Below, in pieces: positions 16,501-43,490 of a stretch of 64,000 bases of DNA (positions within the stretch are counted from its first letter, which is position 1; the number at the start of each line of letters is the position of its first letter). Origin of the DNA: Thysanoteuthis rhombus. Its lineage: Eukaryota > Mollusca > Cephalopoda > Oegopsida > Thysanoteuthidae. The translations under genes were made by a program, and so were the position numbers. The DNA is taken from the NCBI GenBank assembly GCA_963457665.1, contig OY735207.1, positions 59,845,613-59,909,612 of the forward strand, read 5' to 3'. Under the pieces are notes generated by a model. That model ran no database searches. It saw only the letters and a program-made list of their open reading frames with translations, and had not been told where the DNA came from.

Positions 16501-19500
16501 AAGTGAATTTGTGCTTATATATTACTTCTTGGTTTCTTTCAGATGATGACGATGAGAATATGGGAAGGAGCAAGTCTTGGTATGGTTCCGATCGAGACTA
16601 CACATATGATGAGGTGAGAGAAGCCTTTTTTTTTTTCTTTTTTTTTTTTTGTACTGTATATTAAGTGGATTAGGCAACTCCAATAAGATGGGGCCCTGTT
16701 TTCTGTCGATAATAATTTGATCAAATATTCATCTATACACAAATTATGATCAAACAGAAAATAAGATAGCACACCACTCTTTCTCAGACTCTAAAACCAT
16801 TCTGAAATGCTTTTTTTAAATTGCATTTCCTTGAACATCTCGCTGCCTATGTAGTTGAGGGCCTGCAATGATGCTATAGAAAAAAATGCAAGTGTTGTTG
16901 CTTGTTGATGATGCTTTTACTTAAAGGATAAGGTCTTTACTCAAGCCTCCACAGAACTGTTTTGGAAATCTATTTTAATCTATGTTCTAAAAGTTTTTAC
17001 CTTAAAAAAAGCCCCAACTAGGTTTTCTTAGAATTTCTTGATTTCTCAATCAGTTCTTTCTATGTCTTGGCCCCAATTTAAAGTAGGCAAGGATACTTCT
17101 ATTTATCTAGTGTTCAGGTTTTTAGGAAGGAACCTGAAGTGAGATTGTTCATTTCTCTTTTCTTGCCCAATTCAATGCATTTAATTGGGAAAAAATGAAG
17201 TGTGGAATCAGCTATCTAGGCTCATGAATGAATAAATATATTTTTAGACAGAGAAAATGCCAGTTTACCCTAGACACATATTACAATAAACAATTGAAGA
17301 AATGGGGTGCTGCTGCTGGAATGAAAACTGCATACATACAATAGGTGGCCAGCTTGCATATTCGCTGTGTAAAATTCTCTCATTGTAAAACAATTTTGAA
17401 ATGCATCTCCTTGAACCTCTCTCTGCCTATGTAGTTAGGGGCCTGCAACGGTGCTATAGAAAAAAACGCAAGTGTTGTTGTTTGTTAAAGAAGCCCTTTT
17501 TTAACGGATAAGGCCTTTACTCAAGCTTCAGCTCACATTTCTTCCGGAAACCCATTTAATGTTTCCAAAAGATATTATTAGTAAATTCTCTGGTGGTACT
17601 TGATATAGTATGGTGATGCCACCCAGTATTGTGGCCAAACATTAATTTTGGCTGTATTAGGTGTGTTGAACCCTGGTTAGAAATTATATCTGAATAAAAT
17701 AGAAAGTTGAAGACGGAAATGATTCATTTTTAGCTTGTATGTTTGACTGAAAAGTGTACCGCCTGTGTGTATTGTAGAATTATTTGTCTATATTTGATTC
17801 ATAAGACGTTCGGCATCAATTTGATTTTTTTCCTTCAATAAAACCCCATCTTTTGAAGTGGGACTTATGATAATAGCACAAATTTGAACATCCTTAATGT
17901 TTACCGATACTGTATCTCATTAGATTATTGTAGAATCAACTGTCTAACATCATCTACTGATATTCAAATAAAATTCTTGGTGTTGATTATGATGAATTCT
18001 GTCTATAGGTTATTCATCTAATGTAGATTTAACAAAATGTAATTGTCTCAAAACTCAGTTTTTATTTATATTGATATAGATTGGGTACAAATCAGATCAA
18101 CTAAATAAATTGTGCCTTTTTTTTTTTTTTTTTTTTTGGTCTTAGCAGAATAAATGTTTCCCATGTCAAAAATCTAACCTTGTGTCCGCAAAGATCAACC
18201 TCCTTTTTATCCGACTTGAAAATCTCATCATAGAAGTCTTCCAATTTCTGCACAGTCTACAAGTGTCTTTCGGTTTTATGCTTACTGATAGACATTCCAG
18301 ACAAATGCTAAACTAAATCTAACTTGGATATCTCCAACTGATCTCTTTTCTGGTCTGTTTGGGCACTCACCATGTTACAAATAATGTTTGCATGTGTAAA
18401 CCAGATTGTTAGCACCCACCTCCAATTTAATTGATACATTTTTTGATAAAACTCCTGAACTTTTAGTAATGAGTTATTTCTGTAAGTTTCTAATGATCGA
18501 AACTGCATCCAACTTGAGGCCATATTACGTGGCATCATTCTTACCATCTGAGTTGAGCAGCCACCTGGAATATTCACCATATAAAAATGGGATGTCGTTT
18601 CAAATAAAATGATGCATTTATAATTATTCTGTAGGATTATATATCAATTTTTTATGTATATGAGTGTATATGTATATAGTTCAATTTTGTATTTCTTGGG
18701 TTATAGCAAAGCTGATTCATTCATTTTTGTCTGATATTCATAGATGAGTTGTAAATATTTAGGTTAATTTATCATTTCTGGGTATCATTGTTAGATTTTT
18801 GCCTGATTAGATAAAGCTTAGACTATTTATTTGCTGGATACCGCCTTCTCATTGTAAAACCATTTTGAAATGCATCTCCTTGAACCTCTCTCTGCCTATG
18901 TAGTTAGGGGCCTGCAACGGTGCTATAGAAAAAACGCAAGTGATGTTGCTTGTTAAAGAAGCCTTTTTTTAATGGATAAGGTCTTTATTCAGGCCTCAGC
19001 TCACAGAATTCTTTTGGAAACCCATTCAATGCATTTCCAAAAGATATTACTTGTAAATTCTCTAGTGGTACTTGATATAGTGCAGTGATTTTTATATCCT
19101 CAGTATTCTGGCTGTATTGATTGTGTAATACCCTTGCTAGAAATTATATCTGAACGAGATAAAAAGTTGAAGACGAAAATGATTTATTTCTAGTTTGAAT
19201 GTTCAACTAAAATGTCTACCACCAGAATGTATTGTAAAATCATTGTCTGCCGATATTCAAATGAAATTCTTGACATTGATTATAATGAATCCTGATGGTA
19301 GGTTATGTAGATTTTAAGAAATCAAATTGTCTCAAAACCGTTATGTTCATATTCGTATTGATATATGGTACGAATTAGATCAAGTAAATAAATTGCACTT
19401 CTTTTTGCTCTTTTTGGAATAAATGTTTCTTCTGTCAAATATTTAACTTTGTGTTTGCATAATCAATCTCCTTCTTGTCCAATTTGACAATCTCATCATA

Positions 19501-22500
19501 GAAGTCTTCCAATTTCTGCACAGTCTACAAGTGTCTTTCAGTTTTATGCTTACTGATAGACATTCTAGACAAATGCTAAACTAAATCTAACTTGGATATC
19601 TCCAACTGATCTCTTTTCTGGTCTGTTTGGGCACTCACCATGTTACAAATGTTTGCATGTGTAATTGTATTGATAGCAGCCCCTCTCCAATTTAATCAAG
19701 GTATCTTTTGATGGAACTCCTGAACTTTTAATAATGGATCAATCTTTCAGTAAATTTTCGATAATTAAAACTACATTCAACAGTAGGCCATCTCAATGTG
19801 GCGTTCCTTTTACTATCTGAATTGAGCAGCCAGCTCGCATGTTCACTGCGTAAAAATGGGATGTTGTTTCAAAAAAAAAAAAGTGATGCATTAGAATTAT
19901 TCTGTAGGATTATATATCAATTTCTTATGTATATGAGTATTTATGTATAGTTTAATTTTGTGTTCCTCAGTTTATTGCTTGGCTGATATATTCATTTTTG
20001 TCTGATATTCATGGATGAGTTGTAAATATTTAGGTTGATTTATCATTTCTGGGTATCATTGTTGGATTTTTGCCTGATTAAATAAAGCTTAGACTATTTG
20101 CTGGATACCGCCTTCTCATTGTAAAACCATTTTGAAATGCATCTCCTTGAACCTCTCTCTGCCTATGTAGTTAGGGGCCTGCAACGGTGCTATAGAAAAA
20201 AACGCAAGTGATGTTGCTTGTTAAAGGAGCCCTTTTTTAATGGATAAGGTCTTTTACTCAAGCTTCAGCTCACATTATTTTGGAAACCAATTTAATGTTT
20301 CCAAAAGATATTACTTGTAAATTCTCTTATGGTACTTGATATAGTGCAGTGATTTTTATATCCTCAGTATTCTGGCTGTATTAGGTGTATAGAACCTTGG
20401 CTAGAAATTGTATCTGAACGAGATAAAAAGTTGAAGACAGAAATGATTTATTTCTAGCTTGAATGTTTGACAAAAACGTCTACCACCAGAATGTATTGTG
20501 AAATCATTTGGGTATATATGATTCATGAAACCTATGGCATCAATATGATTAGTTACTTCTATAAAACTCTTCTTTTTGAAGTGGGACTCCTGATTTTAAC
20601 ATAGATTTAAACATTCTTGATGTTTCTTAATAAGATGGTATCTCATTAGTATATTGTAGAATTTACTGTTTAACATTGTCTACCGATTTTCAAATGAAAT
20701 TCTTGACATTGATTATAATGAATCCTGATGGTAGGTTATGTAGATTTTAAGAAATCAAATTGTCTCAAAACCGTTATGTTCATATTAGTATTGATATATG
20801 GTACGAATTAGATCAAGTAAATAAATTGTGCTTCTTTTTGCTCTTCTTGGATTAACATTGTTTTTGCAAGGATCAATCTCCTCATCCAATTTGAAAATCT
20901 CATCATAGAAGTCTTCCAATTTCTGCACTGTCTACAAGTGTCTTTCGGTTTTATGCTTACTGATAGACATTCTAGACAAATGCTAAACTAAATCTAACTT
21001 GGATATCTCCAACTGATCTCTTTTCTGGTCTGTTTGGGCACTCACCATGTTACAAATGTTTGCATGTGTAATTGTATTGATAGCAGCCCCCCTCCGATTT
21101 AATCAATGTATCTTTTGATGAAAATGTATATATGTGTGTGTGTGTGTGTCTATAGTTTAATTTTGTGTTCCTCAGTTTATTGCTTGGCTGATATATTCAT
21201 TTTTGTCTGATATTCATGGATGAGTTGTAAATATTTAGGTTGATTTATCATTTCTGGGTATCATTGTTGGATTTTTGCCTGATTAGATAAAGCTTAGACT
21301 ATTTATTTGCTGGATACCGCCTTCTCATTGTAAAACCATTTTGAAATGCATCTCCTTGAACCTCTCTCTGCCTATGTAGTTAGGGGCCTGCAACGGTGCT
21401 ATAGAAAAAAACGCAAGTGATGTTGTTTGTTAAAGGAGCCTTTTTTTAATGGATAAGGTCTTTTGCTCAAGCTTCAGCTCACAATTCTTTTAGAAACTCC
21501 TTTTAATAAATTGAAATTTAACCATATATTCTCTCTTTCTACCTATATCTATCTCCCATTCGAACCAAGTGCTAGAACGTCATAAATACTACATCATGGC
21601 TGTAGCAAAATGAAAGTGTCCTTTTTACAATGGATTTTTATTGGGTATCAAGCACTTCCTAGAAAAAGACTGGAAATTCTCCAGGCTCTACACCAAAAAT
21701 GTCACTAGGATCTTTGAAATATTTCTGGACAATTAGACAGATGAGTGAAAAGGGAAGAATATCTCTAGTTGATTGGGTCGGTTATCTTGGCTACAGTGAT
21801 TCAATTAAACTGTTTTAAACATGTTATGATGACTTCCTATTTTTACCAATTTTTTTTATGAAGAACGCGGCACAAGTTACATCACAAAAAATATACTTGA
21901 CAGTGATCAGATTGAATTTCCTTTAGGTAGACATCTATGTTTTTGGTTATTGCAGATTCTACTGAAATACAAATGGATTTCAGTGACCATTGATATAGAA
22001 GAACATGCACAATGCTTTGATACTTGTTCAGTTGATCCAACTTGAATCTGCATCAATTAGAGACCTGTTATATTCACTGCATGAACTACTTTATGTTGCC
22101 AGCTGAACTCATTGCTGAGCATTTTAATTCTTCAGCAAGAAGTGCCAATGGCCTGGATTTATTCAAGGTGGGTCCCAATTTGTGATGGGGGTGACCTACA
22201 CACTTTGATCTCGGGACCATCCTCTGTGGTACATGCTATGAGATTGCAACAGACTCTGGTGTAGATGAACCACTAAATTCTTGATATGTAGAACTTGTTT
22301 GTTTTTATTCTTGGTGCAGTTTTTTATTTTTTTATTATCATAATTCTCGTTATAATCATTTTTTCTTTTCAGCTGCTCACTAGGGTTTTTGATATCATGA
22401 GAGAAAAGAACCCGGATATGGTTGCTGGTGAGAAAAAACGTTTCGTCATGAGACCCCCACAGGTATTAAGAGTGGGTACCAAAAAGACCTCATTTGCAAA

Positions 22501-25500
22501 TTTCTCCGAAATATGCCGATTGTAAGTTGCCCCTTTTTTACCTCTAAAATTTTTAGTCAAACAGATCTGCATTAAAAACGTTCAGTTTTATCACCTTTCT
22601 TGCAACAATTCTTACTTAATTGCCAAAGAAGTGCCCTTTTTTTTTCTTAATTCAGTTTGGATGATGCTTTGTCAACCCTGGATAATTGTAGACTAGTACT
22701 TCTCTCATCTCAATTTTAGCTTCTTTCTTTGCAACTTCTCAGATCATTAATCAAGCTAAAAGAGCATTTCCCATCCCTTAATTCACCATGTTCTATGTTG
22801 AGAAAGGATTCCATGATGTACATAATTGATTATAGACTAGTATTTCTTGTTGATTTTAATTGCTTTTCATCACAACTACTCAGACTGTACATCTACAGCT
22901 ATCAGTAAACGGTGTAGGTTGAAAATAGAGAATAAGCTTTCTGCTAGATTCCAACTCTCATCGCTTTCGTGTGAGAGAGCCTGTCTTACTGTGACAGCTG
23001 CTGTACCACTTGGGCTACAAGATCTTTGTAGCTGGTAGATAATTAGATTTATCCATGTACACTAACTCTTTGTTTTTCTCCAATCACTAGGCACCATATT
23101 TTGAGTAATTGTTTTTGCATACGCTCGTAGTATTTGTAGTAGTAATAACATTGTGATTTTTTTCATTATATGAAGCATTGTCAACCATTATTGATGGTTG
23201 TAGAATGGTGGCTTTGGTAGTTGCGGGGAAAAGCGGCTAAAATTTAAATGGAATAAATACTAGTCAAGAATCAATAATTGTAAATATTGAATTGAGTCTT
23301 TTTGAAATAAATGGTGCTATGGATGAATTGAAGGAATTACGAAACTCAAGTTTGTGAGAAGTAGTATTTGAGGTGTTCCATCATTTCTTTATTATTTTGT
23401 ATTTGTTAAGTTTTCTAAGATTATTAAAAACACGTTCTTGTCTAGAAAATAGTATTTCTGTCCCTCCTTAAATTCTAAGACTATCATGAAATTATTTTTT
23501 TGAAATGCATCTCCTTGAACCTCTCTCTGCCTCTGTAGTTAGGGGCCTGCAACGGTGCTATAGAAAAAAACGAAAGTGATGTTGCTTGTTAAAGATGACC
23601 TTTTTTAATGGATATGGTCTTTGTACAAGTTTCAGCTCACAGAATCATTTTGAAGAACCATTTTATCTATGTTTTTAAAAGTTTTTATCTAAAAATTCTC
23701 AACTATTTACTTATAACACAAGAACCATGTGTGAACTGGAGTAGATACTGGATGTGATGGTATAAAATATTACATAATTCACTGATGTAATTGAATATTG
23801 TGTACTTATCCAGTGTGTAGAACCCAAGTAGGAAATCATAAGCATAAATAACTGGTGCTATGATTGAATAAAAGAATTAGAATCATTATCTTGTGTGAAG
23901 CAGTATCTGAAGAATCCCTATATTTCCTTTATCTCTGTGTAAAATTAGTTTTTTGTGCGGACTATCGTTTCACTGCTTGTTATGGTGTGGCAATTATAAA
24001 TGAACATCAATGATTAATTATTTTGAAAAATTACTATTTAATTATTGTATTCATTGAGTTTTCATACCATTATCTGGTGTCTTTCTCTGGTGATAAAGTG
24101 ACAGCAAGTCTCCTCAAGCACTATGGCTGATTTTAGTTGTGCTATTGACGGGATGGTTTCAATTCTTTGAATATCTTTTGCAAGGCTTTTCAGTGTTGCT
24201 CCAAGAACTCCAATAATAATGGGTTATAATTGCTGCTTTTATCAACTGTTATTCTTGCCAATAACATTAGGTTTCAATCTTTCTGTCATTTGTTTTAGAA
24301 ATACTAAAATAATGACTACTTTTCATATTTTTGGAAAACTTTTATTATGATGTCTTTTAAGATCAACAAATTTTTTCTTCACTGCTGCGATTCGATTATT
24401 GTTTTCTGCTTAGCAGTTGTAAAGTTAGAATGCTTTTGCCTGACTTTTGAAATGGGATGATAAGTTGTTTAACAAATCTCACTGACACTGTTGGATCTTA
24501 TTGCTTTTTATTTCATTGCTATCTGTTTAATAATTCTTTTTTCTTTGGTTGTTACTATCATTTATTCAATTTTAGCTTTGTTTTGTTGTGTGAAAGAGTT
24601 GACCTGTTCCCACTGAATCTTTTAACAAGTCAATCAAGCACTTTCCCCCAGTGTATAAAAGCTTTAGATATCTCCCACCATTGACATTTTCTTAATCAGT
24701 ACTCCTCTTACTGTTTGTTTTCTCTGCATGTTATTTTCATCTTCTCATTGAAACTTATGATTGCTCTTAATTTTCTAGATTACACAGAGAACCAAAGCAT
24801 GTGTTAGCCTTCTTACTTGCAGAGTTGGGTACGAGGTAAGTTGTTTTTTTTTTTTTTTTTTTTTTTTTTTTCTTAATACATTCAATTTTTTTTTAATTGA
24901 AACTGTCTCTTAATTAGCTCCTAAGTTGTTTATAATTTTTAACCGCAGTGAGACAGCAAGTCTAAGAATATAAGTAGAATTGAAAATGATACATTCTTAT
25001 CTCTTTATATTGGATAAACCTTGTTCATAAAGTGAATTATCTTGTATGCTATATTTGTCAACAGAAAAATTATGGCAAGAGTAAAGAAAATTAGCCTCCC
25101 CCACTCACATTTTAAAGCCACTATGAAATCCTTTTTTGAAATGCATTTCTTTGAATCTCTCTCTGCTTATGTTGTTAGGGGCCTGCAGCAGTGCTTAACA
25201 AAAAACGTAATTGTTGTTGCTTGTTAAAGATGCCTTTTTTTGACGGATATGGTCATTGTTCAAGCCTTAGCTCATAGAGTCCCTTTCGAAACTGATTTTA
25301 ATCTATGTTTCTAAAAGATTTTACCTGAAAATTCTCAACTATTTACTTATAATGAAAGAATAGTTTACGGCCTAGAGAGGATACTAAGTATAGGCTGGAA
25401 ATGATGGGTAGATAAGTTTTTAAAGTTAATGGGGAAGATGATTTATTTCTAGCTTATGTGTTTTCATAAAAGATCTGTCAGGGTTCAGTTATAAGACTAT

Positions 25501-25521
25501 ATATTCTAAAAAGATTTAAAT

Positions 25522-25616
<95 letters not shown>

Positions 25617-26424
25617 TGGTTTTTAATTTATTTTTTTTAGCTGCTTTATCTGTCACCTGGAGACAGAACTCGAACATGTTTCTTTATATAAGGAGTCTCC
25701 GGTCTGATAGTGGCTACATGAAAACTGAGAAAAGGCATGAAGACCATTAATTGCTCCTGATATGTATTCATTTCCATTGGTCTTCAATGTCCATTGTTTG
25801 CTTTCATGATCCTCCTATCACACTCATTAAGAGTCTGGCATATATTGTACATTGTAAATATTTTTTTCATGTACTCAATTTTCCAGCAAATCTCAGAAAA
25901 CTCACTTAAAGACACACTTCTTGTCTATTCATATTAGAAAGTCCTTATCTAAGAATGAATAATCTTGTACACTATATTTGTCAACACAGAAACTATGGCC
26001 ATAGTGACCAGAATTAAGGAAGAAAATTGTATTTTCCTCCTTTCTCATTTTCTAGAGCCATTCTGAAATGCATTTTCAAATTGCATCTCCTTGAACCTCT
26101 CTCTGCCTATGTAGTTAGGGGCCTGCAACGGTGCTATAAAAAAAAACTTGTTGTTTGTTGCAGATGACCTTTTTCAATTGATAAGGTCTTCACTCAGGCT
26201 TCAGCTCACAGACTCCTTATGGAAACCCATTTTAATCTATGTTCCAAGAATCAACTCTTTTTGTCCCTTGGCCCCAATTTAAAGCTGATAAGGATGCATG
26301 TATTTATCTGGTGTACAGGTTTTTAGAAAGGAACATGATGTGAGTTTATTCATTTTTCTTCTTACCCAATTCAATGCATTTAATTAGAAATAATGAAGTG
26401 TGGATCAGCTCTCCTGGCACCTGA

Positions 26425-26458
<34 letters not shown>

Positions 26459-29400
26459 GTGTGTCTGTGATTTATAAATGTTGAACTGACACAGTGAAAA
26501 TGCCAGTTTACCCTTGACACGTAAATACAAAAAACAATTGAAGAAATGTGCTCCTGCTGGGATTGAAACTGCAGCAAACTGACATATTCACCATGTAAAA
26601 ATGGGATATTGTTCCAAATGCAATGATGCATCTATAATTATTCTGTAGGATTATATATCAATTTCTTATGTATATGAGTGAATATGTATATAGTTTAAAT
26701 TTGTGTTCCTTGGGTTATTACAAAGCTGATTCATTCCTTTTTGTCTGATATTTATAGATGAGTTATAAATATTAATTTCTGGGTATCATTGTTAGATTAT
26801 GGCCTGATTAAATAAAGCTTAGATTATTTGCTGGATATTGCTTTCTCACGTTGTAAAACCATTTTGAAATGCATCTCCTTGAACCTCTCTCTGCCTCTGT
26901 AGTTAGGGGCCTGCAACGGTGCTATAGAAAAAAACGAAAGTGATGTTGCTTGTTAAAGATGACCTTCTTAATGGATAAGGTCTTCATTCAGGCTTCAGCT
27001 CACAGATTCTTTCTTTTGGAAACCCATTTAATATATGTTTCCAAAAGATATTACTTGTAAATTCTCTGGTGGTAGTTGATATAGTATGGTGATGTGTATA
27101 TAACCAGTATTGTGGCCAAACACAAAATATGACAGTGGAGGTCATCAATTTGATTAGTTCTTTCTATAAAACTCTTCTTTTTGAAGTGGGGCTGATGATA
27201 TTAGCATAAATTTGAACATTCTTAATGTTTCCTAAAGAGATAGTATCTCATTAAAATATTGTAGAATTTACTGTTTAACATTGTCTACTGATAATAAAAT
27301 GAAATTCTTGGTGTTGATTACACTGAACCCTGACAGTAGGTTATTCATCTTGTGTAGATCTTAAAAGATCAAATTGTCTCTAAACTGTTATATTCATTTT
27401 TATGTTCGTAAAAATTTGATACAAATCCGGTCAAATAAATAAATTGTGCTTCTTTTTGCTCTTCTCAGAATAAATGTTTCCTTTGTCAAATATCTAACTT
27501 TGGGTTTGCAAAGATCAACCTCCTTTTTATCCAACTTGACTATCTCAGTATGGGAGTCCACCAATTTGTGCACTGTCTACAAGTGTCTTTCAGTTTTTAT
27601 GCTTACTGATAGACATTCTGGACAAATGCTAAACTAAATCTAACTTGGATATCTCCAACTGATCTCTTTTCTGGTCTGTTTGGGCACTCACCATGTTACA
27701 AATGATGTTTGCACGTGAGACCCCCCCTCTCTTCAATTGATATATCTTTTGATGAAGTTCCTGAATATTTAGTAATGGATCAATCTTTCAGTAAGTTTCT
27801 GATAATTAAAATTGTGTCCAACAGGAGGCCATCTTAATGCAGCATCACTCTTGCCATCTGAGTTGAGCAGCAAGCTTGAATATTCACCATGTAAAAATAG
27901 GATGTCGTTTCGAATAAAATAATGCATTTATCATTATTCTGTCGGATTATATATCAATTTATGTTGTTGCTTGTTAAACAAGCCCTTTTTCAATGGATAA
28001 GGTCACAGAATTCTTTTGGAAACCCATTCAGTACATTACCAAAAGATGTTGCTTGCAAATTCTCTGGTGGTAGTTGACGTAGTACTGTGATGTATGTATA
28101 TCCAGTATTGTGGCTGATCACAAATTCTGGCTGTATTAGGTGTAGAACCCTGGCTAGAAATTATATCTGAATGAGATAAAAAGTTAAATATAGAAATGAG
28201 TTATTTCTAGCTTGAATGTTTGACTAAAAAGTCTACCGCCAGAGTGTATTGTAAAATCATTTTTGTATATTTGATTCATGATAATTTTGTCCACCAATTT
28301 CTGCACTGTCTACAAGTGTCTTTCAGTTTTTATGCTTACTGACAGACATTCTAGACAAATGCTAAACTAAATCTAACTTGGATATCTCCAACTGATCTCT
28401 TTTCTGGTCTGTTTGGGCACTCACCATGTTACAAATAATGTTTGCACATATTACCGTATTTTATTGATGTATCTTCAGTTAAAATTCCTGAACTTTTGAT
28501 AATGAATCAGTCCTGAATGCCACAGAATGCATGTGGTAATAATCGATGCAGTTGATTGATGTGATTTCTTGAAGATTTTCAAAGTGAACCCCCTATATCC
28601 TCAAGAACTTCTTTGCTGGGCAATTCTAATTTTGTTAGATCCTATTCTAATCTAATATCATTAAACTAACGTAAACTTACATCTAAATATCTTATAGACT
28701 CAGAAACAGCTTCACCCTGGTGTCCGAATATTTGTCTTTGAGGGGAACTGGACCCAGATATCAACATAAGTGGCACTGACCTCCAATGTTTCTTGAGGCT
28801 CCAAATTACCATGCCTGGCCAAACTGTAAAAAGGTGGTGGGGCATACGACTACCTAACCCTCATTTAATTTCATGAAATCTTTTGAATATCATTCGCTTT
28901 CTTGTTATGTTTGAATTTTTTTTTTACTTTACTTTTGTGGACATATGTGACATTGCAATCACGGTGAGACTAGTCTCCATTTAACTATCCAACAACAGAA
29001 TGTACAAGTACTAGACTGACTGTTCGTAAAGGTGGTCCTTTGCTTTAGGTTTAAGGTGTTGTAATGGGACCTGATAATACGTATTTTGTAGCAAAATTTA
29101 TTTTGTCATAGCCATTTCATGTTGGAGAATCTGATGTACAATTTGGTGTTGTCTCCTTTGACATCTCGTTCATAAAAACAGTTCTTAGGGGTGAAGACAA
29201 ATCTGTCATGCTAAGAATGCATGTTCAAGAGAGAATAACCATTACTGACCTCGATGGTTGGAAAATGGTATTGGATTGAAATTTTCTGTGATTTTCTTTT
29301 CCTTTTTTGTTGAACTCCATTCTTCTAAGTTTTTCTTTTGTATTATGCTTGACATACATAAGTTGAAATTATCTTAGTACTGAAAACAAATAAGCAGTAA

Positions 29401-31628
29401 TGTGTATTTGTCATTTAGTTGATTTTCTTTCTTTGCACTTGATAAAGATTCTAAGGTCCCCATGCCTTACGAGTTAAACAGTGGTGCTATATAAAGACAT
29501 GAACACTTTCCTCTGTTGTTTTCTTTGTAGCAACCGAGGCATATATCATGTGACATTCTTATGTTATGGAAACAATTCTTGTTTGAATATCTACTTTCTT
29601 AACTCCTTGAAGCAGTAATGAAGAAAACTTCATCTTATTAATGTTACTATTTACCAAAACTGCAATTAATGTTTTGTTTTTTGTTTTTTTGCATCTTGTT
29701 TAAATTTCAAGTCTTGTAAAGTTTTTTTTTTTTTGTTTTGTTTTTTTTTCAAATTTAGTATTTCATTTATTTTATTTGAAGTATTATAAATGATTATTAA
29801 TAATTGCCACTATTAAGCATTGAGCGAGCAATCCTCCAGCATGGAGGGTTGTGAGTTTTATTCTCACCTGGAACTTATTTTTCATTCCAATTTACTGTTA
29901 ATTCATTTACTCACTACCGAGTAAAAACCTGCCTGATTTGTGATAAAAAGCAACTATTTTGAAGGTTATTATTGATTTTTGCTAACATTAATGATTTGAA
30001 AATTTTTTCCTTGAATCCTTTTTCTTTGTATATTATATAATAACAATTGTTGAGAATGATTTGTTTATATCTCTGTCTCTTAGTGGCTCAATCGATGGTA
30101 ACAACCAGCTGATCATCAAAGGACGATTTCAACAGAAACAAATAGAAACTGTAGTTAGGAAATATATTAGTAAGTACAATTTATTTTTCTTATTCAGTTG
30201 TATGAAATTGGTCAGAAAATTTTCTTGAGTTTAATTACGTAGTGCCTTATTTTCATAAAGTAACATGAAGGGATATGATAAAGAAATCTTAATAATTCCT
30301 CAAGAGCTGAAGTTTGGATAATGAGGCCCCATTGGAATACGAACTCATTTTGGATAACAAAACGATTTTCTCAATGCTTGCTCTGTGTTAGTGTGTGTGC
30401 ACTTGGAGTAAAGTTTCTGAATCTGAAAGAATGTTGGTCATAATGTGTAGAAAATACTTTCTATCCTTGTCAGAAAGTATTTACAGTGGAAGCTGTTTAT
30501 TATGGTTATGGATAATGTTATCTAACGGTCATGGAAATCAATAGGTCCCAAACACTTTGAAATAAATTTTGAGAAAATGAACTTCATTGATTCTTTTATC
30601 AGGTCAAAAAGTTTGAAATATAATGGTATAAGTTGTTCCAATTTTTATATCCTTTGCTCAGTGTTATCACCTGGTTATTGTTATCCAAAAGATCCTGTCC
30701 CAAAGTGATCACAATAAGTAACTTCCTGTGAGTATGTAAAAAGGCGGGAGTATGAAATGATCACAAAAATATCTGGAAATTTATTTGTGATTATTTGCTT
30801 CTTGAACCTGCTGTAAAAGTGTGTTGGAAGGGGAATAACATGTATGCATCATGTAATTTGAAATGGTGAAAGTTGATGTAAAAAAATTTCTGACACAGTA
30901 ATTTTAACTTTTTATCAATTCTCTTTGGCTTATTGCTGCTTCGTTATCACAATGTATGAGGTCAAATAGAAATACTTAATCTCAGATGGGACATTTATTT
31001 GGTTGTAAACAGTTTGACATGAATGAGTGGCAATATGACTACATTTATTTTTTAGCTCTATCTGCCCAGTAGGCTTTGAACATGAATTGCCGGTCATGAA
31101 GTCCTGATTTCTTTTGCATTTCGCATCAACATAGTAATCCTTGCAAGCTTTTTAAGTCCAGCTGAAACCAGGACTTTTTTCTTACAAGTTTTTCAAAAAT
31201 ATATACATGAGACAAGCCTCCAAGATATGTTATACCAGGTTAAGCTTTTGAATGGGGGGGGGGGGGTATATGTTGTCAAATACAGTAAGCTGAACTATCA
31301 AGTTGTGATTAAGGGGGGGCAGCAATAAGATGGAGAGAACTGGTCGAAAATACTCTATTTCAGAATTGGAATTATTTAAGCAGATTTTATGTTTTTTGAA
31401 TTTTTAGTTCCTCTGAATAAAAACCATTTTTTTTTCCTTTTGTCCATTGCAGAAGAATATGTTACATGTCACACCTGTCGGTCACCTGACACTCTCCTCC
31501 AGAAAGACACAAGACTTTTCTTCTTGCAGTGTGAGACGTGCGGTTCTCGCTGCTCTGTGGCCAGCATCAAATCTGGTTTCCAGGCTGTCACCGTCAAGAG
31601 AGCAGCCATGCGTGCCAAGAATGCATAA
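2403..31628 (+). CDS. EIF2S2: Eukaryotic translation initiation factor 2 subunit 2 (eIF2 beta), nine coding exons
   Basis: eIF2 beta is one of three subunits of eIF2, which carries Met-tRNAi and GTP to the 40S ribosome in the cytoplasm. The nine exons join in frame (2403-2420, 10100-10277, 12335-12420, 14788-14935, 16543-16613, 22373-22521, 24779-24835, 30084-30169, 31453-31628) into 322 residues, close to the human length of 333. Visible features are three lysine boxes of eight K (residues 13-20, 75-82, 122-129), which in this family bind eIF5 and eIF2B epsilon. The core motifs [38 protein letters not shown] and [17 protein letters not shown] follow. A zinc ribbon C-x2-C-x17-C-x2-C occupies residues 270-294. 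Acidic stretches separate the lysine boxes. All introns are GT-AG. The short first exon encodes only MAEDEA. Introns 5-7 carry repeated candidate small RNAs. Confidence 0.97.
4335..5006. mobile_element. Inverted-repeat element (MITE-like), arms diverged
   Basis: The left end (GGTTATCTCCCTTTG, then GGCTAGATTT, AACTTGGAATG, GGCTCCAGAAA) reappears as a diverged reverse complement at the right end, around 4870-5006 (CTGGAGCC, AATCTAGCC, AAGGGAGGTAAC). The centre has a second short inverted pair around AGCCTTTGTATG (about 4585) and CATACAAAGGCT (about 4446). Poly-T tracts interrupt the right arm. This looks like an old foldback or MITE-type insertion with no coding capacity. Confidence 0.5.
5901..5975 (+). 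repeat. tRNA-like SINE head
   Basis: A TCTGC/GCAGA five-pair stem encloses a seven-base loop, CCCATAA, as in an anticodon arm. It is followed by a B-box-like GTTCAATTC. The acceptor stem does not close, so this is a tRNA-derived repeat fragment and not a functional tRNA. Similar tRNA-like heads occur elsewhere in the window. Confidence 0.45.
7910..8010. repeat. Dispersed repeat, also at 62335-62425
   Basis: The segment with CCATATCAAACTTCAGTAG followed by ACAGCCACCC matches CCATATCAAGCTTTAGTAG followed by ATAGCCCACCC near 62368. Both copies are preceded by a similar AACTCATnnAAG string. The element is short and of unknown family. Confidence 0.4.
8490..8895 (-). pseudogene. Fossil C-terminus of a non-LTR (LINE) retrotransposon ORF2
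   Basis: Read on the minus strand with frame changes, this segment shows the usual end of a LINE reverse-transcriptase polyprotein. YGAETW is followed by [13 protein letters not shown], a WRDHKT block, then QWAGHVTRM (the W.GHV.R motif) and finally WGRSMSNN. Several stops and frame breaks interrupt it, so it is a dead 5'-truncated insertion. It lies antisense within intron 1 of the eIF2 beta gene. Assignment to a particular clade is not possible by eye. Confidence 0.7.
10100..10277 (+). CDS. EIF2S2: eIF2 beta coding exon 2 (first lysine box)
   Basis: The acceptor is TTTCTACAG and the donor is GAAG|gtttgt, in phase 1. The exon encodes LSFDLM, eight lysines, [11 protein letters not shown] and an acidic, low-complexity linker ending AEKIDE. 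It corresponds to the first K-box of vertebrate eIF2 beta. Confidence 0.93.
11020..11300 (-). repeat. Interspersed repeat family A, copy 1
   Basis: This copy matches, in reverse orientation, repeats at 41808, 48735, 49408, 54085 and 58090. Shared landmarks are GTATGTAT then GCACCAATGG, GAAATAACTTATTCATTGAT, CAATTGATCACC and GCATGCTGCCA, ending near AATGACTAACCA. There is no coding capacity. It is probably a SINE or a non-autonomous element. Confidence 0.65.
11925..12270 (-). repeat. Interspersed repeat family A, copy 2
   Basis: Contains GTCAACATAGGTTTCTGTGA, TTGATCTTACCAGCTGG, GCAACACCAATGGA and, at its end, AGAGAAATAACTTGTTCATT. The same order is seen in copy 1, about 900 bp upstream. This copy is interrupted and diverged in the middle. 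Confidence 0.5.
12335..12420 (+). CDS. EIF2S2: eIF2 beta coding exon 3 (second lysine box)
   Basis: The acceptor is GTCTTTTAAG and the donor CCC|gtaagttc. It encodes DLSLDFALT, eight lysines, then [12 protein letters not shown]. This matches the second K-box of vertebrate eIF2 beta, which is also preceded by an aspartate/leucine-rich segment. Confidence 0.92.
12421..14787 (+). other. Intron 3 of the eIF2 beta gene
   Basis: A 2.4-kb intron with homopolymer T/A runs and a (TA)n microsatellite at 13479-13532. No conserved repeat family or RNA gene was recognised in it. Confidence 0.65.
13479..13532. repeat. (TA)n microsatellite
   Basis: An uninterrupted alternating TA tract of about 27 dinucleotides. 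It generates apparent Tyr-Ile repeat reading frames that are not genes. Confidence 0.95.
14788..14935 (+). CDS. EIF2S2: eIF2 beta coding exon 4 (third lysine box)
   Basis: The acceptor is TTCCTTGCAG and the donor GATG|gtgagg. It encodes [13 protein letters not shown], an acidic run, DLNLSLPM and eight lysines, then an acidic segment ending EEADD. This is the third K-box, which in the family contributes most to binding eIF5 and eIF2B epsilon. Confidence 0.93.
14936..16542 (+). other. Intron 4 of the eIF2 beta gene
   Basis: A 1.6-kb intron. The part at about 15655-15850 is repeated at about 29110-29300 in intron 7 (family C). The rest is unannotated AT-rich sequence. Confidence 0.65.
15655..15850 (+). 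repeat. Repeat family C, copy 1
   Basis: Shares an ordered series of blocks with 29110-29300 in intron 7: TCATGTT then AATCTGAT, GATTTGGTATCGTCT/AATTTGGTGTTGTCT, GACAAATCT, ATGCTA, ATGTTCAA, GAATAACCATTA and ATGGTTGGAAA, then TATTGGATTGAAAT. The two copies differ by substitutions and short indels throughout. Confidence 0.55.
16543..16613 (+). CDS. EIF2S2: eIF2 beta coding exon 5
   Basis: The acceptor is GGTTTCTTTCAG and the donor GAG|gtgaga. It encodes [13 protein letters not shown] followed by [11 protein letters not shown]. This corresponds to the vertebrate AGSERDYTYEE segment that begins the conserved core. Confidence 0.93.
16822..16956 (+). ncRNA. Family 1 candidate H/ACA-like RNA, copy 1 (diverged)
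   Basis: The most diverged recognisable copy in intron 5. It keeps CTGCCTATGTAGTT, the hinge ATAGAA and a terminal ACA, but differs at several stem positions (for example TGCATTTCC, GAACATCTCG). It may be an older or decaying copy. Confidence 0.4.
17402..17540 (+). ncRNA. Family 1 candidate H/ACA-like RNA, copy 2
   Basis: This 139-nt copy is a good example of the family. The 5' hairpin has a lower stem GCATC/GGTGC, an upper stem CCTCT/AGGGG and an inner stem CTGC/GTAG closing the tetraloop CTAT. The unpaired segments between lower and upper stems resemble a pseudouridylation pocket. The hinge ATAGAA fits AnAnnA. The 3' hairpin has CCTT/AAGG in its upper part, and the element ends with ACA plus three bases. 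Conservation with other copies stops at that point. The H/ACA assignment is an inference from hand folding. Confidence 0.6.
18253..18382 (+). ncRNA. Family 2 candidate H/ACA-like RNA, copy a
   Basis: A 130-nt unit. The 5' hairpin has an upper stem TCGGT/ACTGA (TCAGT/ACTGA in other copies, so pairing is kept through a wobble) within AGTGTCT/AGACATT. Possible hinges are AGACAA and AAACTA. The 3' half contains TTGGA/TCCAA closing a four-base loop and AAATG pairing with CAT(G)TT next to the terminal ACA plus AAT. The last 83 nt are identical in copies a to e. Antisense, this island also contains a 21-codon frame, which I do not consider the selected feature. Confidence 0.6.
18871..19008 (+). ncRNA. 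Family 1 candidate H/ACA-like RNA, copy 3
   Basis: A 138-nt unit almost identical to copy 2 across its 5' hairpin and hinge. In the 3' hairpin GCTTG pairs with CAGGC where copies 4 and 5 have CAAGC, so the stem is kept by a G-T wobble. It ends ACAGAA. Confidence 0.6.
19521..19650 (+). ncRNA. Family 2 candidate H/ACA-like RNA, copy b
   Basis: A 130-nt unit with TCAGT/ACTGA in the 5' hairpin. It is identical to the other four copies over the final 83 nt and ends ACAAAT. Immediately downstream the copies begin to differ (GTTTGCATG here, AATGTTTGC in copies a and e). Confidence 0.6.
20138..20277 (+). ncRNA. Family 1 candidate H/ACA-like RNA, copy 4
   Basis: A 140-nt unit with an intact 5' hairpin, hinge ATAGAA and GCTTG/CAAGC pairing in the 3' hairpin. 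It ends ACATTA. The base after ACA differs from that of copy 3, which shows where constraint ends. Confidence 0.6.
20928..21057 (+). ncRNA. Family 2 candidate H/ACA-like RNA, copy c
   Basis: A 130-nt unit with CTGTCTA at the 5' end, able to pair with TAGACA before the hinge, and TCGGT/ACTGA in the upper stem. The last 83 nt are identical to the other copies. Confidence 0.6.
21347..21486 (+). ncRNA. Family 1 candidate H/ACA-like RNA, copy 5
   Basis: A 140-nt unit, the last copy in intron 5. The 5' hairpin and hinge match copies 2-4 exactly. It ends ACAATT, after which the homology with other units breaks down. Confidence 0.6.
22373..22521 (+). CDS. EIF2S2: eIF2 beta coding exon 6
   Basis: The acceptor is TTCTTTTCAG and the donor CGATT|gtaagt. 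It encodes [35 protein letters not shown] and [15 protein letters not shown], the most conserved part of the eIF2 beta/eIF5 fold. It is nearly identical to the vertebrate sequence. Confidence 0.97.
22522..24778 (+). other. Intron 6 of the eIF2 beta gene
   Basis: A 2.3-kb intron carrying one family 1 candidate RNA (23506-23644). The flanks of that copy are only weakly similar to the intron 5 units. No other element was recognised. Confidence 0.7.
23506..23644 (+). ncRNA. Family 1 candidate H/ACA-like RNA, copy 6
   Basis: A 139-nt unit alone in intron 6. Its tetraloop is CTCT where intron 5 copies have CTAT, a change confined to a loop. GCTTG pairs with CAAGT through a G-T wobble. It ends ACAGAA. 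The flanking DNA is poorly alignable with other copies while the island is nearly identical, a strong hint of selection. Confidence 0.65.
24779..24835 (+). CDS. EIF2S2: eIF2 beta coding exon 7
   Basis: The acceptor is AATTTTCTAG and the donor ACGAG|gtaagt. It encodes [18 protein letters not shown], identical in character to the [18 protein letters not shown] of vertebrates. Confidence 0.95.
25142..25279 (+). ncRNA. Family 1 copy 7, degenerate
   Basis: It aligns over the full length but the hinge region reads TTAACAAA instead of CTATAGAAA. The terminal ACA is ATA, and stem bases are changed (GAATCTCTC, GCAGCAGTGC). By the criteria that unite the others this looks like a dead copy, a useful contrast to the intact ones. 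Confidence 0.5.
25522..25612. repeat. Compound (CA)n(TA)n microsatellite
   Basis: A run of alternating CA passes directly into a long alternating TA tract. The whole tract is purine-pyrimidine alternating. Confidence 0.95.
26082..26213 (+). ncRNA. Family 1 candidate H/ACA-like RNA, copy 8
   Basis: The 5' hairpin is intact. The hinge is ATAAAA, which still fits AnAnnA. The 3' hairpin is shortened just after the hinge but has a strong upper stem GACCTT/AAGGTC. It ends ACAGAC. Confidence 0.5.
26424..26464. repeat. Compound (TA)n(CA)n microsatellite
   Basis: Alternating TA followed by CA and ending CGTGTGTCTGTG. It is short and interrupted. Confidence 0.9.
26870..27007 (+). ncRNA. Family 1 candidate H/ACA-like RNA, copy 9
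   Basis: A 138-nt unit. The tetraloop is CTCT, the hinge ATAGAA, and the 3' hairpin has a perfect six-pair upper stem GACCTT/AAGGTC plus GCTTG/CAGGC. It ends ACAGAT. Confidence 0.62.
27573..27703 (+). ncRNA. Family 2 candidate H/ACA-like RNA, copy d
   Basis: A 131-nt unit with one extra T in the 5' apical loop. TGTCTA pairs with TGGACA, where other copies have TAGACA, so pairing is retained by a T-G wobble. The final 83 nt are identical to copies a-c and e, although the surrounding unit differs substantially from those in intron 5. Confidence 0.65.
27961..28010 (+). pseudogene. Truncated family 1 copy (3' part only)
   Basis: It starts abruptly at ATGTTGTTGCTTGTTAAA and keeps CAATGGATAAGGTC and CACAG. 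The 5' hairpin and hinge are missing, and the 3' part is internally shortened. It appears to mark a deletion junction between duplicated units. Confidence 0.55.
28306..28436 (+). ncRNA. Family 2 candidate H/ACA-like RNA, copy e
   Basis: A 131-nt unit with the same extra loop T as copy d and a single T-to-C change (GACAGACATT). The final 83 nt are identical to all other copies. The sequence downstream diverges after GTTTGCACA. Confidence 0.62.
29110..29300 (+). repeat. Repeat family C, copy 2
   Basis: The diverged partner of 15655-15850 in intron 4, in the same orientation and with the same order of blocks. Confidence 0.55.
29812..29880 (+). repeat. tRNA-like SINE head
   Basis: CCTCC/GGAGG forms an anticodon-arm-like stem. 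It is followed by GTGAG/CTCAC closing a seven-base TTTTATT loop, as in a T arm. There is no acceptor stem, so this is a tRNA-derived repeat and not a tRNA gene. Confidence 0.45.
30084..30169 (+). CDS. EIF2S2: eIF2 beta coding exon 8
   Basis: The acceptor is CTGTCTCTTAG and the donor ATTA|gtaagt. It encodes [16 protein letters not shown], then [13 protein letters not shown], matching the vertebrate [21 protein letters not shown] block. Confidence 0.96.
30170..31452 (+). other. Intron 8 of the eIF2 beta gene
   Basis: A 1.3-kb intron with a G-run near 31255. A segment at about 30630-30735 recurs at about 33240-33330 downstream of the gene. Confidence 0.7.
30630..30735 (+). repeat. Repeat family D, copy 1
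   Basis: It shares TCCTTTGCT, TATTGTTATC, AAAAGATCCTGT, CCAAAGTG, TCACAA and CTTCCTGTG-like blocks with 33240-33330. The family is unknown. Confidence 0.5.
31453..31628 (+). CDS. EIF2S2: eIF2 beta coding exon 9 (zinc ribbon and stop)
   Basis: The acceptor is GTCCATTGCAG. It encodes [19 protein letters not shown], then [19 protein letters not shown], ending RAKNA and TAA. The four zinc-ligand cysteines are at residues 270, 273, 291 and 294. The last exon also carries the 3' UTR. Confidence 0.97.
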
Positions 31629-42795: not shown

Positions 42796-43490
42796 TTGTG
42801 GAAAAGCCAATATCACAGGCAACATGGCTACTCTTGTGAGGAAACAAATCATGCTTTCAGAAAAAAAGAAAGTGTTGATCTTCACAAGAGAAGAATGTCA
42901 ATTTCAGCCATTGCCAATGATCTTGAACAATGTAGAAGAGTTGTTCACACAATATTCACTGGAAAGTCAGATACACTAGAATCCAAAAAGAAGCCTGGAC
43001 GACCTGGCAAAACTACTAAGAAGGAAGACAGAATGACAGAACATTCATAGCAGACAGATTTAAGATTGACATTGAAATTTCACGCAAGTTGGTGTGAATT
43101 CAGGTTTGCAAGTGTCAAGACACACTGTTTCATTCCAACTGATCAAAGCCTCTTTGCAGTTGTGAGAACCAGAAAGCATATGAGTACGTAAACCAGTAGC
43201 CAGAATATGATCTTTGGACTCCTGAACAGGGTAGACGAGTGTCTTGCCCATCAAAGTGTTGAGGTAAGTCTGAAGTTTGGAGATGGCAGTGAGAGGGTTG
43301 GGGGCATCATCTCTGCAGCTGGCATTGGCCCTCTGGATTGGCTGCGACAGCATGTCATTCCACACCACCGTTCAGTTGAGAATCGGCCGCCCATTTTCAT
43401 GTAGGATAATGCGCCGTGTTACAGCCAAGAAACAAATTGAAAACAACTCAAAAAGCTGAATATCCTCAGCTGAACAAATAATGAACCATG
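42796..43490 (+). pseudogene. Tc1-like transposase fossil
   Basis: With several frame shifts and stops, the plus strand recalls a Tc1-family transposase. The N-terminal DNA-binding part contains ISAIANDLEQCRRVVHT and KKPGRPGKTTKKEDR, the GRP hook plus basic motif typical of Tc1 proteins. The centre contains fragments resembling the GGGSVMVWG block and AAGIGPLDW. Near 43404 a DNAPC-like catalytic segment is followed by KKQIENNSKS. The reading frame is not intact, so the copy is dead. Terminal repeats were not located. Confidence 0.7.

Follow-up and report, generated by a model that had tools for sequence, protein, structure and literature searches.

Small nucleolar RNA (snoRNA) sets beyond model animals are annotated mainly via homology. 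The noncoding RNAs of the giant-squid genome were called with Rfam models at the curated threshold and a transfer RNA scanner, according to an excerpt of PMC6962438, and one snoRNA per intron predominates in animals, according to one of PMC11028025. In the closest published parallel that we have seen, described in excerpted text of PMC1821038, the introns of Drosophila minifly/Nop60b hold four isoforms of a C/D snoRNA (DmSnR60 a-d) and also two copies of an orphan RNA (snm60 a-b), with one RNA per intron; the snm60 copies are 85% alike, share a perfect 59-bp segment and are reported to have no copies elsewhere. Here we describe five near-identical copies of a unit resembling a box H/ACA snoRNA in a 64-kb stretch of the genome of the cephalopod Thysanoteuthis rhombus (assembly GCA_963457665.1, contig OY735207.1, positions 59,845,613 to 59,909,612; hereafter the window, in whose numbering all coordinates are given). 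From sequence and modelled structure, we put the probability that these copies form a family of intron-encoded H/ACA snoRNA genes at roughly 0.85. The host, as identified by its exon matches, is EIF2S2 (eIF2 beta), a translation-factor gene, and all five copies lie in its sense orientation.

A first-pass annotation of this DNA, made from the letters alone, had marked five intronic copies of 130-131 nt that were identical over their last 83 nt. All five are present where it placed them (starts at 18253, 19521, 20928, 27573 and 28306; copies 1 to 5), and the identity of the last 83 nt holds in all 10 pairs. The unit probably starts about 4 nt earlier, at TGCAC, which closes a GCA/UGC helix at the base of hairpin 1; with this helix counted, copies 1 to 5 measure 134, 134, 134, 135 and 135 nt. 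Seeds taken along the 83-nt block match only the plus strand of the window and only within the five copies, and a covariance model made from the copies gave seven matches there, the five copies plus two on the minus strand (E values of 0.09 and 0.13). The 3' end of the unit had no match in a viral contig collection. We located host exons by tblastn with a human eIF2 beta sequence as the query; from their placement, copies 1-3 share an intron, and a later intron holds copies 4-5.

In the sense direction, all five copies fold computationally into hairpin 1, a hinge, hairpin 2 and a tail of ACA plus three bases. Minimum free energies for copies 1 to 5 are -31.0, -33.3, -34.3, -34.6 and -34.5 kcal/mol, with z-scores against shuffled sequence of -2.70, -3.53, -4.13, -4.56 and -4.54. 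The hinge, UAAACUAAAUC, is identical in all five and contains a box H of the ANANNA type, AAACUA; each genomic copy ends in ACA followed by AAT, a candidate 3' end for the RNA. Hairpin 2 has an open pocket of 5/6 nt (AUAUC, CACUCA), or 6/7 nt if the closing U-G pair opens, and the top of this pocket is 13-14 nt from the ACA. That spacing puts a target uridine at 14-15 nt, within the 15+/-1 nt from the box given in an excerpt of PMC8522698. The corresponding pocket of hairpin 1 is closed, GUCUA pairing with UAGAC and leaving a 2/1-nt internal loop in four of the five copies; copy 1 has a slightly larger internal loop and loses one pair. Hairpin 1 is thus modelled as what is probably a structural half.

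We scanned both strands of the whole 64 kb with rules of our own: an ACA, an ANANNA 50-80 nt upstream, a single hairpin 2 with its pocket 12-16 nt before the ACA, and a single hairpin 1. The scan gave 10 matches, all on the plus strand, with the five copies at ranks 1, 2, 3, 5 and 6 (scores of -34.0 to -30.4). Six shuffles of the window gave 1-6 matches each, the best at -28.9. Over 45 shuffled windows the mean was 3.9 matches, and six matches, spread over 5 of the 45, reached -30.3 or below. As a genome control we used 21 stretches (207,613 bases fetched, 110,113 of them non-N; one stretch adjoins the window), which held two matches, the best at -25.4. The first-pass annotation had suggested an H/ACA-specific prediction on the copies, and all five fall among the top six. 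Its H/ACA reading is supported by the fold, the box H, the pocket spacing, the sense orientation and these ranks.

No model in Rfam 15 matched the 64-kb window at its gathering threshold. A known Rfam family is rejected on this result, and the earlier description of the unit as an undescribed RNA family holds as far as Rfam 15 goes. With E values up to 10, positions 17000-30000 gave 13 matches, none of them H/ACA. Searching copy 1 alone with laxer filters gave nine matches, all below threshold, of which three were H/ACA models on the plus strand, three C/D and three others. The H/ACA models were SNORA72 (18248-18386), SNORA35 (18320-18382, ending at ACA plus three) and snoR135, with SNORA72 scoring highest among them at 18 bits against a threshold of 43. 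An intronic control stretch of equal size gave five sub-threshold matches, none H/ACA and three C/D, a thin comparison since it is a single control, though it points the same way. Two other assignments were considered and set aside. U7 small nuclear RNA matched the minus strand of copies 2, 4 and 5 below threshold and copy 1 not at all. The CAB box of small Cajal body-specific RNAs is ugAG, and the loops UUUAUGCUU (with one extra U in copies 4-5) and UCUUUUCU lack it on inspection by eye. A literature search found no publication joining eIF2-beta and snoRNA terms among the matches listed, which is weak evidence of absence, 'H/ACA' being unsearchable as a term.

Several results weigh against reading the copies as H/ACA snoRNA genes. 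The scan rules were set after the fold was known, and shuffled windows can outscore the copies (best -40.7); the 45-shuffle control weakened the impression left by the first six. Given the post hoc rules, we put weight on relative rank and on a new match at rank 4, described below. The antisense of two copies also folds beyond shuffles (z of -2.35 and -3.61), so the strand is not decided by stability alone. The Rfam match of copy 1 with the best E value is a C/D family, SNORD81 (E 0.16). None of nine copies of a second repeat in the same host, family 1, is among the scan matches. The five copies show no two-sided compensatory changes, being too alike for a covariation test, and the claim that their differences keep pairing held only in part: of the six variable columns, two keep their pairs by a one-sided change, two break pairs (3 of 187 cells), and the remaining two fall in unpaired positions or reflect a loop indel. 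Finally, the invariance of the 83-nt block extends to the bases of its terminal loop and hinge, which exceeds what guiding alone would need.

The remaining points on that side concern the target. From the source genome we read part of one ribosomal DNA (rDNA) unit; this piece ends in 1,900 N, presumably within 28S, and its 18S gene is long, measuring 2,060 bases when counted from model position 217. In three registers, the hairpin 2 pocket reached best scores of 24, 23 and 21 against this piece, with shuffled 95% levels of 18, 20 and 20, levels too easy to beat because the 60 plain shuffles spread those 1,900 N over the sequence. We reran two registers with 200 shuffles in two-base blocks, using 18S, 5.8S and that part of 28S which could be read. 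The best closed-register site (L032:1539, in an apparently variable 18S stretch) was equalled in 12 of 200 shuffles, and the best open-register site (L032:896, GAGUGC-U-C-AGA in a conserved region of 18S, 6 + 3 bp) in 28 of 200. There was accordingly no significant ribosomal RNA (rRNA) target in 18S, 5.8S or the readable 28S. The open-register site corresponds to U823 of human 18S, adjoining pseudouridine 822, where the human sequence reads GAGUGU-U-C-AAA. That the uridine in the T. rhombus sequence GAGUGC-U-C-AGA is the target seems doubtful. The hairpin 1 pocket scored at most 16 in two registers (95% levels of 18 and 16). Hairpin 2 had no match in pieces of human 28S, and human 18S, 28S-end and small nuclear RNA sequences gave one weak match, in 18S, whose score of 18 does not reach the shuffled 95% level (22). 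The rRNA patterns had no matches in collections of genome contigs and viral contigs. The comparison of pockets with rRNA and small nuclear RNA sites that the first-pass annotation had proposed therefore yielded no significant target, with part of the 28S reading N. Excerpts of PMC8522698 state that some guides can pair with rRNA yet leave it unmodified in the cell, and that the basic guide rules are neither sufficient nor absolutely essential, which makes guide prediction unreliable in any case.

During this search we also found rDNA arrays on contigs C384, C353, C341, C298 and C49 that carry 19 well-preserved 18S loci, at a spacing of about 11.4 kb that is uneven on C49 (11-40 kb). Diverged pieces were found as well, four of 18S on large contigs and two of 28S.

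With no significant rRNA target, the guide role is argued from anatomy, and we consider it fairly probable that the RNA acts as a guide through its 3' hairpin. At that level of confidence, the best-surviving alternative overlaps with the H/ACA reading. Here the unit would form an H/ACA-type ribonucleoprotein (RNP) that does not guide pseudouridylation, either a processing or chaperone snoRNA acting through the 3' hairpin or an orphan with a role on messenger RNA or in cis on EIF2S2. The snoRNA snR30/U17 works by its 3' hairpin. The invariance of the whole 3' half, loop and hinge included, the closed pocket of hairpin 1 and the lack of a significant target among the sequences compared all fit such an RNA. 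However, the pocket and spacing of hairpin 2 are canonical, part of the 28S is unreadable, and the snR30/U17 motifs are not in the pocket on inspection by eye. We regard this alternative as unlikely.

A second alternative is that the copies, being linked repeats in introns, are kept identical by gene conversion or were duplicated recently, with no RNA function. The copies are indeed linked and repeated, and invariant loop letters are compatible with copying. The identity of copies 2 and 3 runs over 104 + 39 nt (143 nt), and their upstream flanks are 93% identical, which makes recent duplication or conversion probable for that pair. We compared flanks from 300 to 30 nt upstream and over 300 nt downstream, and 19 of the 20 pair-by-side comparisons gave 70-83% identity, the exception being the upstream side of 19521/20928; those involving copy 5 are rough, with 17-28 gaps each. 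The surrounding duplicated DNA has diverged, as had been claimed. We made the calculation for three of the six inter-intron pairs: flank identity of 79-83% predicts about 14-17 changes per 82 nt and none is observed, with probabilities of 1.6e-7 (18253/27573, flank identity 0.826, 82 identical sites), 2.1e-8 and 5.8e-9.

The boundaries of this identity follow the modelled RNA. Pairwise identical runs extend 77-104 nt before the ACA and 6-39 nt from the ACA onward, so 83 nt is the minimum identical stretch. The first-pass annotation had the alignment breaking at ACAAAT: the run does stop exactly at ACA plus three in 6 of 10 pairs, some of these ends being created by an AAT indel, but beyond that indel ATGTTTGCA, directly 3' of the unit, recurs in every copy. 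Inside the unit, 12-15 of every 15 columns are invariant across the five copies; within about 15-20 nt on either side this drops to at most 4 of 15. The six variable columns all fall among columns 1-52 of the 135, in agreement with the earlier claim that differences are confined to the 5' half (p = 0.0027 for random placement, in a test chosen post hoc). The invariant part thus matches an H/ACA-shaped RNA and not random ends, family 1 is conserved separately within the same duplicated blocks, and conversion leaves the H/ACA geometry unexplained. Conversion alone we hold to be very improbable. Of the two causes first offered, selection or active gene conversion, we favour selection, with conversion only as part of a mixture: duplication with some exchange, in which the RNA is kept by selection, is likely.

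Being repeated and intronic, the units might also be taken for intron insertions of a short non-autonomous transposon or of some other dispersed repeat. As far as our genome search goes, we reject this idea, including for a short interspersed nuclear element, as having next to no chance: copy 1, used as query against the source genome (2,731,506,558 bases in 514 contigs), matched five places, the five copies themselves, all within EIF2S2, and their homologous flanks indicate a larger duplicated block instead of separate insertions. That DNA search skipped very common words and scored only the best candidates; the genome-wide scatter that would mark an ordinary transposon did not appear in it.

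On the reading that we prefer, each unit would be the gene for a box H/ACA snoRNA of about 130 nt inside an EIF2S2 intron. By analogy with the H/ACA class, from which we infer processing, protein binding, guiding and target, the RNA would be released from spliced introns by exonuclease trimming up to bound dyskerin, NHP2, NOP10 and GAR1, its 3' end being set by the ACA box plus three bases. As computed, the invariant 3' hairpin has a lower stem UAAC-U-UGG/CCA-U-GUUA (whose final A is shared with the ACA), a pocket with the arms AUAUC(U) and (G)CACUCA, and an upper stem (U)CCAA/UUGG(G). It would pair with a target UGAGUG(Y)-Psi-N-(R)GAUAU and direct pseudouridylation there. The copies multiplied together with family 1, as a 1.2-1.5-kb block was duplicated within and between the two introns, and the RNA part would have been retained by purifying selection.

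Positions of the H/ACA-like units, host exon matches and neighbouring repeats in the window.
Feature	Positions	Strand	ACA	Basis and remarks
H/ACA-like unit, copy 1	18249..18382	+	18377-18379	repeat alignment, computed fold
H/ACA-like unit, copy 2	19517..19650	+	19645-19647	repeat alignment, computed fold
H/ACA-like unit, copy 3	20924..21057	+	21052-21054	repeat alignment, computed fold
H/ACA-like unit, copy 4	27569..27703	+	27698-27700	repeat alignment, computed fold
H/ACA-like unit, copy 5	28302..28436	+	28431-28433	repeat alignment, computed fold
EIF2S2 exon match, upstream of copies 1-3	16575..16616	+		tblastn; 14 residues, E 0.041, weak alone
EIF2S2 exon match, between the two unit-bearing introns	22370..22522	+		tblastn
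EIF2S2 exon match, upstream of copies 4-5	24780..24833	+		tblastn
EIF2S2 exon match, downstream of copies 4-5	30061..30177	+		tblastn
EIF2S2 last exon match	31455..31619	+		tblastn
Family 1 copy	16819..16949	+		repeat search
Family 1 copy	17397..17537	+		repeat search
Family 1 copy	18866..19005	+		repeat search
Family 1 copy	20133..20274	+		repeat search
Family 1 copy	21342..21483	+		repeat search
Family 1 copy	23501..23641	+		repeat search
Family 1 copy, diverged hairpin 1	25137..25274	+		repeat search
Family 1 copy	26079..26210	+		repeat search
Family 1 copy	26865..27004	+		repeat search
Family 1, 43-base piece upstream of copy 5	27962..28004	+		genome search
F3, another H/ACA-like unit, intron of copies 4-5	29433..29558	+	29553	H/ACA scan rank 4, fold

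Family 1 and the five-copy unit are co-amplified as a composite block of 1.2-1.5 kb, over 17397-21483 and then in the later intron over 26865-28436. In a genome search, one family 1 copy matched nine places over nearly its full length and a further one over 43 bases, all of them in EIF2S2; like the five-copy unit, family 1 is, within the limits of the search, not a dispersed repeat. Its absence from the scan matches leaves its H/ACA nature resting on the sequence reading and on folds, in which five of the nine copies passed a motif filter and three of those five share the same hairpin 1 shape; one copy compared with Rfam gave four sub-threshold matches, two of them H/ACA. From this sequence and modelling evidence, family 1 is probably also an H/ACA gene. 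Hairpin 1 of family 1 is near-invariant in seven of nine copies and its hairpin 2 variable, whereas the five-copy unit shows the reverse, with hairpin 2 invariant, which suggests that each of the two RNAs has one working half.

The rank 4 scan match, F3, scored -33.5 and has a box H AUAUAA, a tail ACAUUC and two open pockets. Compared with Rfam, this stretch gave seven sub-threshold matches, six of them H/ACA. In target trials of six pocket registers against three sequence sets, the best sites were GAAUG-U-C-AAAGUG in human 28S (equalled in 5 of 100 shuffles) and, in the 18S of the source genome, GUAUAU-U-A-AAG (1 of 100). Further along the window, at about 42796-43047 on the plus strand, a reading frame resembles the remnant of a Tc1-type transposase, as recognised by eye.

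Conservation among paralogs singles out guide-like RNAs, at least one and perhaps three, within a single host gene where Rfam at threshold is blind, and it suggests a route to lineage-specific snoRNAs. EIF2S2 may also serve as a natural example of introns that carry several H/ACA genes, in which dosage and intron processing are open to study. More speculatively, and improbably on present evidence, EIF2S2 in this lineage could be an amplified H/ACA RNA factory (five units, nine of family 1 and one F3) supplying abundant RNPs, with a 3' hairpin constrained letter for letter, loop and hinge included, as either a lineage-specific guide for the changed 18S site (GAGUGC-U-C-AGA against GAGUGU-U-C-AAA in human) or a non-guide pre-rRNA chaperone.

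The EIF2S2 unit resembles animal snoRNAs of the SNORA type in its hairpin, box H, hairpin and ACA-plus-three order, its length of about 130 nt, its sense orientation in introns of a translation-related gene and a pocket 13-14 nt from the ACA. It differs in matching no Rfam family at threshold, in its closed 5' pocket and in occurring as five copies of one RNA, three and two in two introns. Several putative snoRNA genes in a single intron also set EIF2S2 apart from the one-per-intron pattern that the excerpt of PMC11028025 describes for animals. Like minifly/Nop60b, as far as the excerpted account goes, EIF2S2 carries near-identical small RNA copies in the introns of one protein gene, but the minifly RNAs are C/D-type or orphan and stand one per intron, whereas those of EIF2S2 are H/ACA-type and several per intron. 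The H/ACA class is well known; its EIF2S2 member appears to be undescribed and its copy arrangement unusual, distinct in the host gene, the pair of RNAs and the 1.2-1.5-kb composite duplication.

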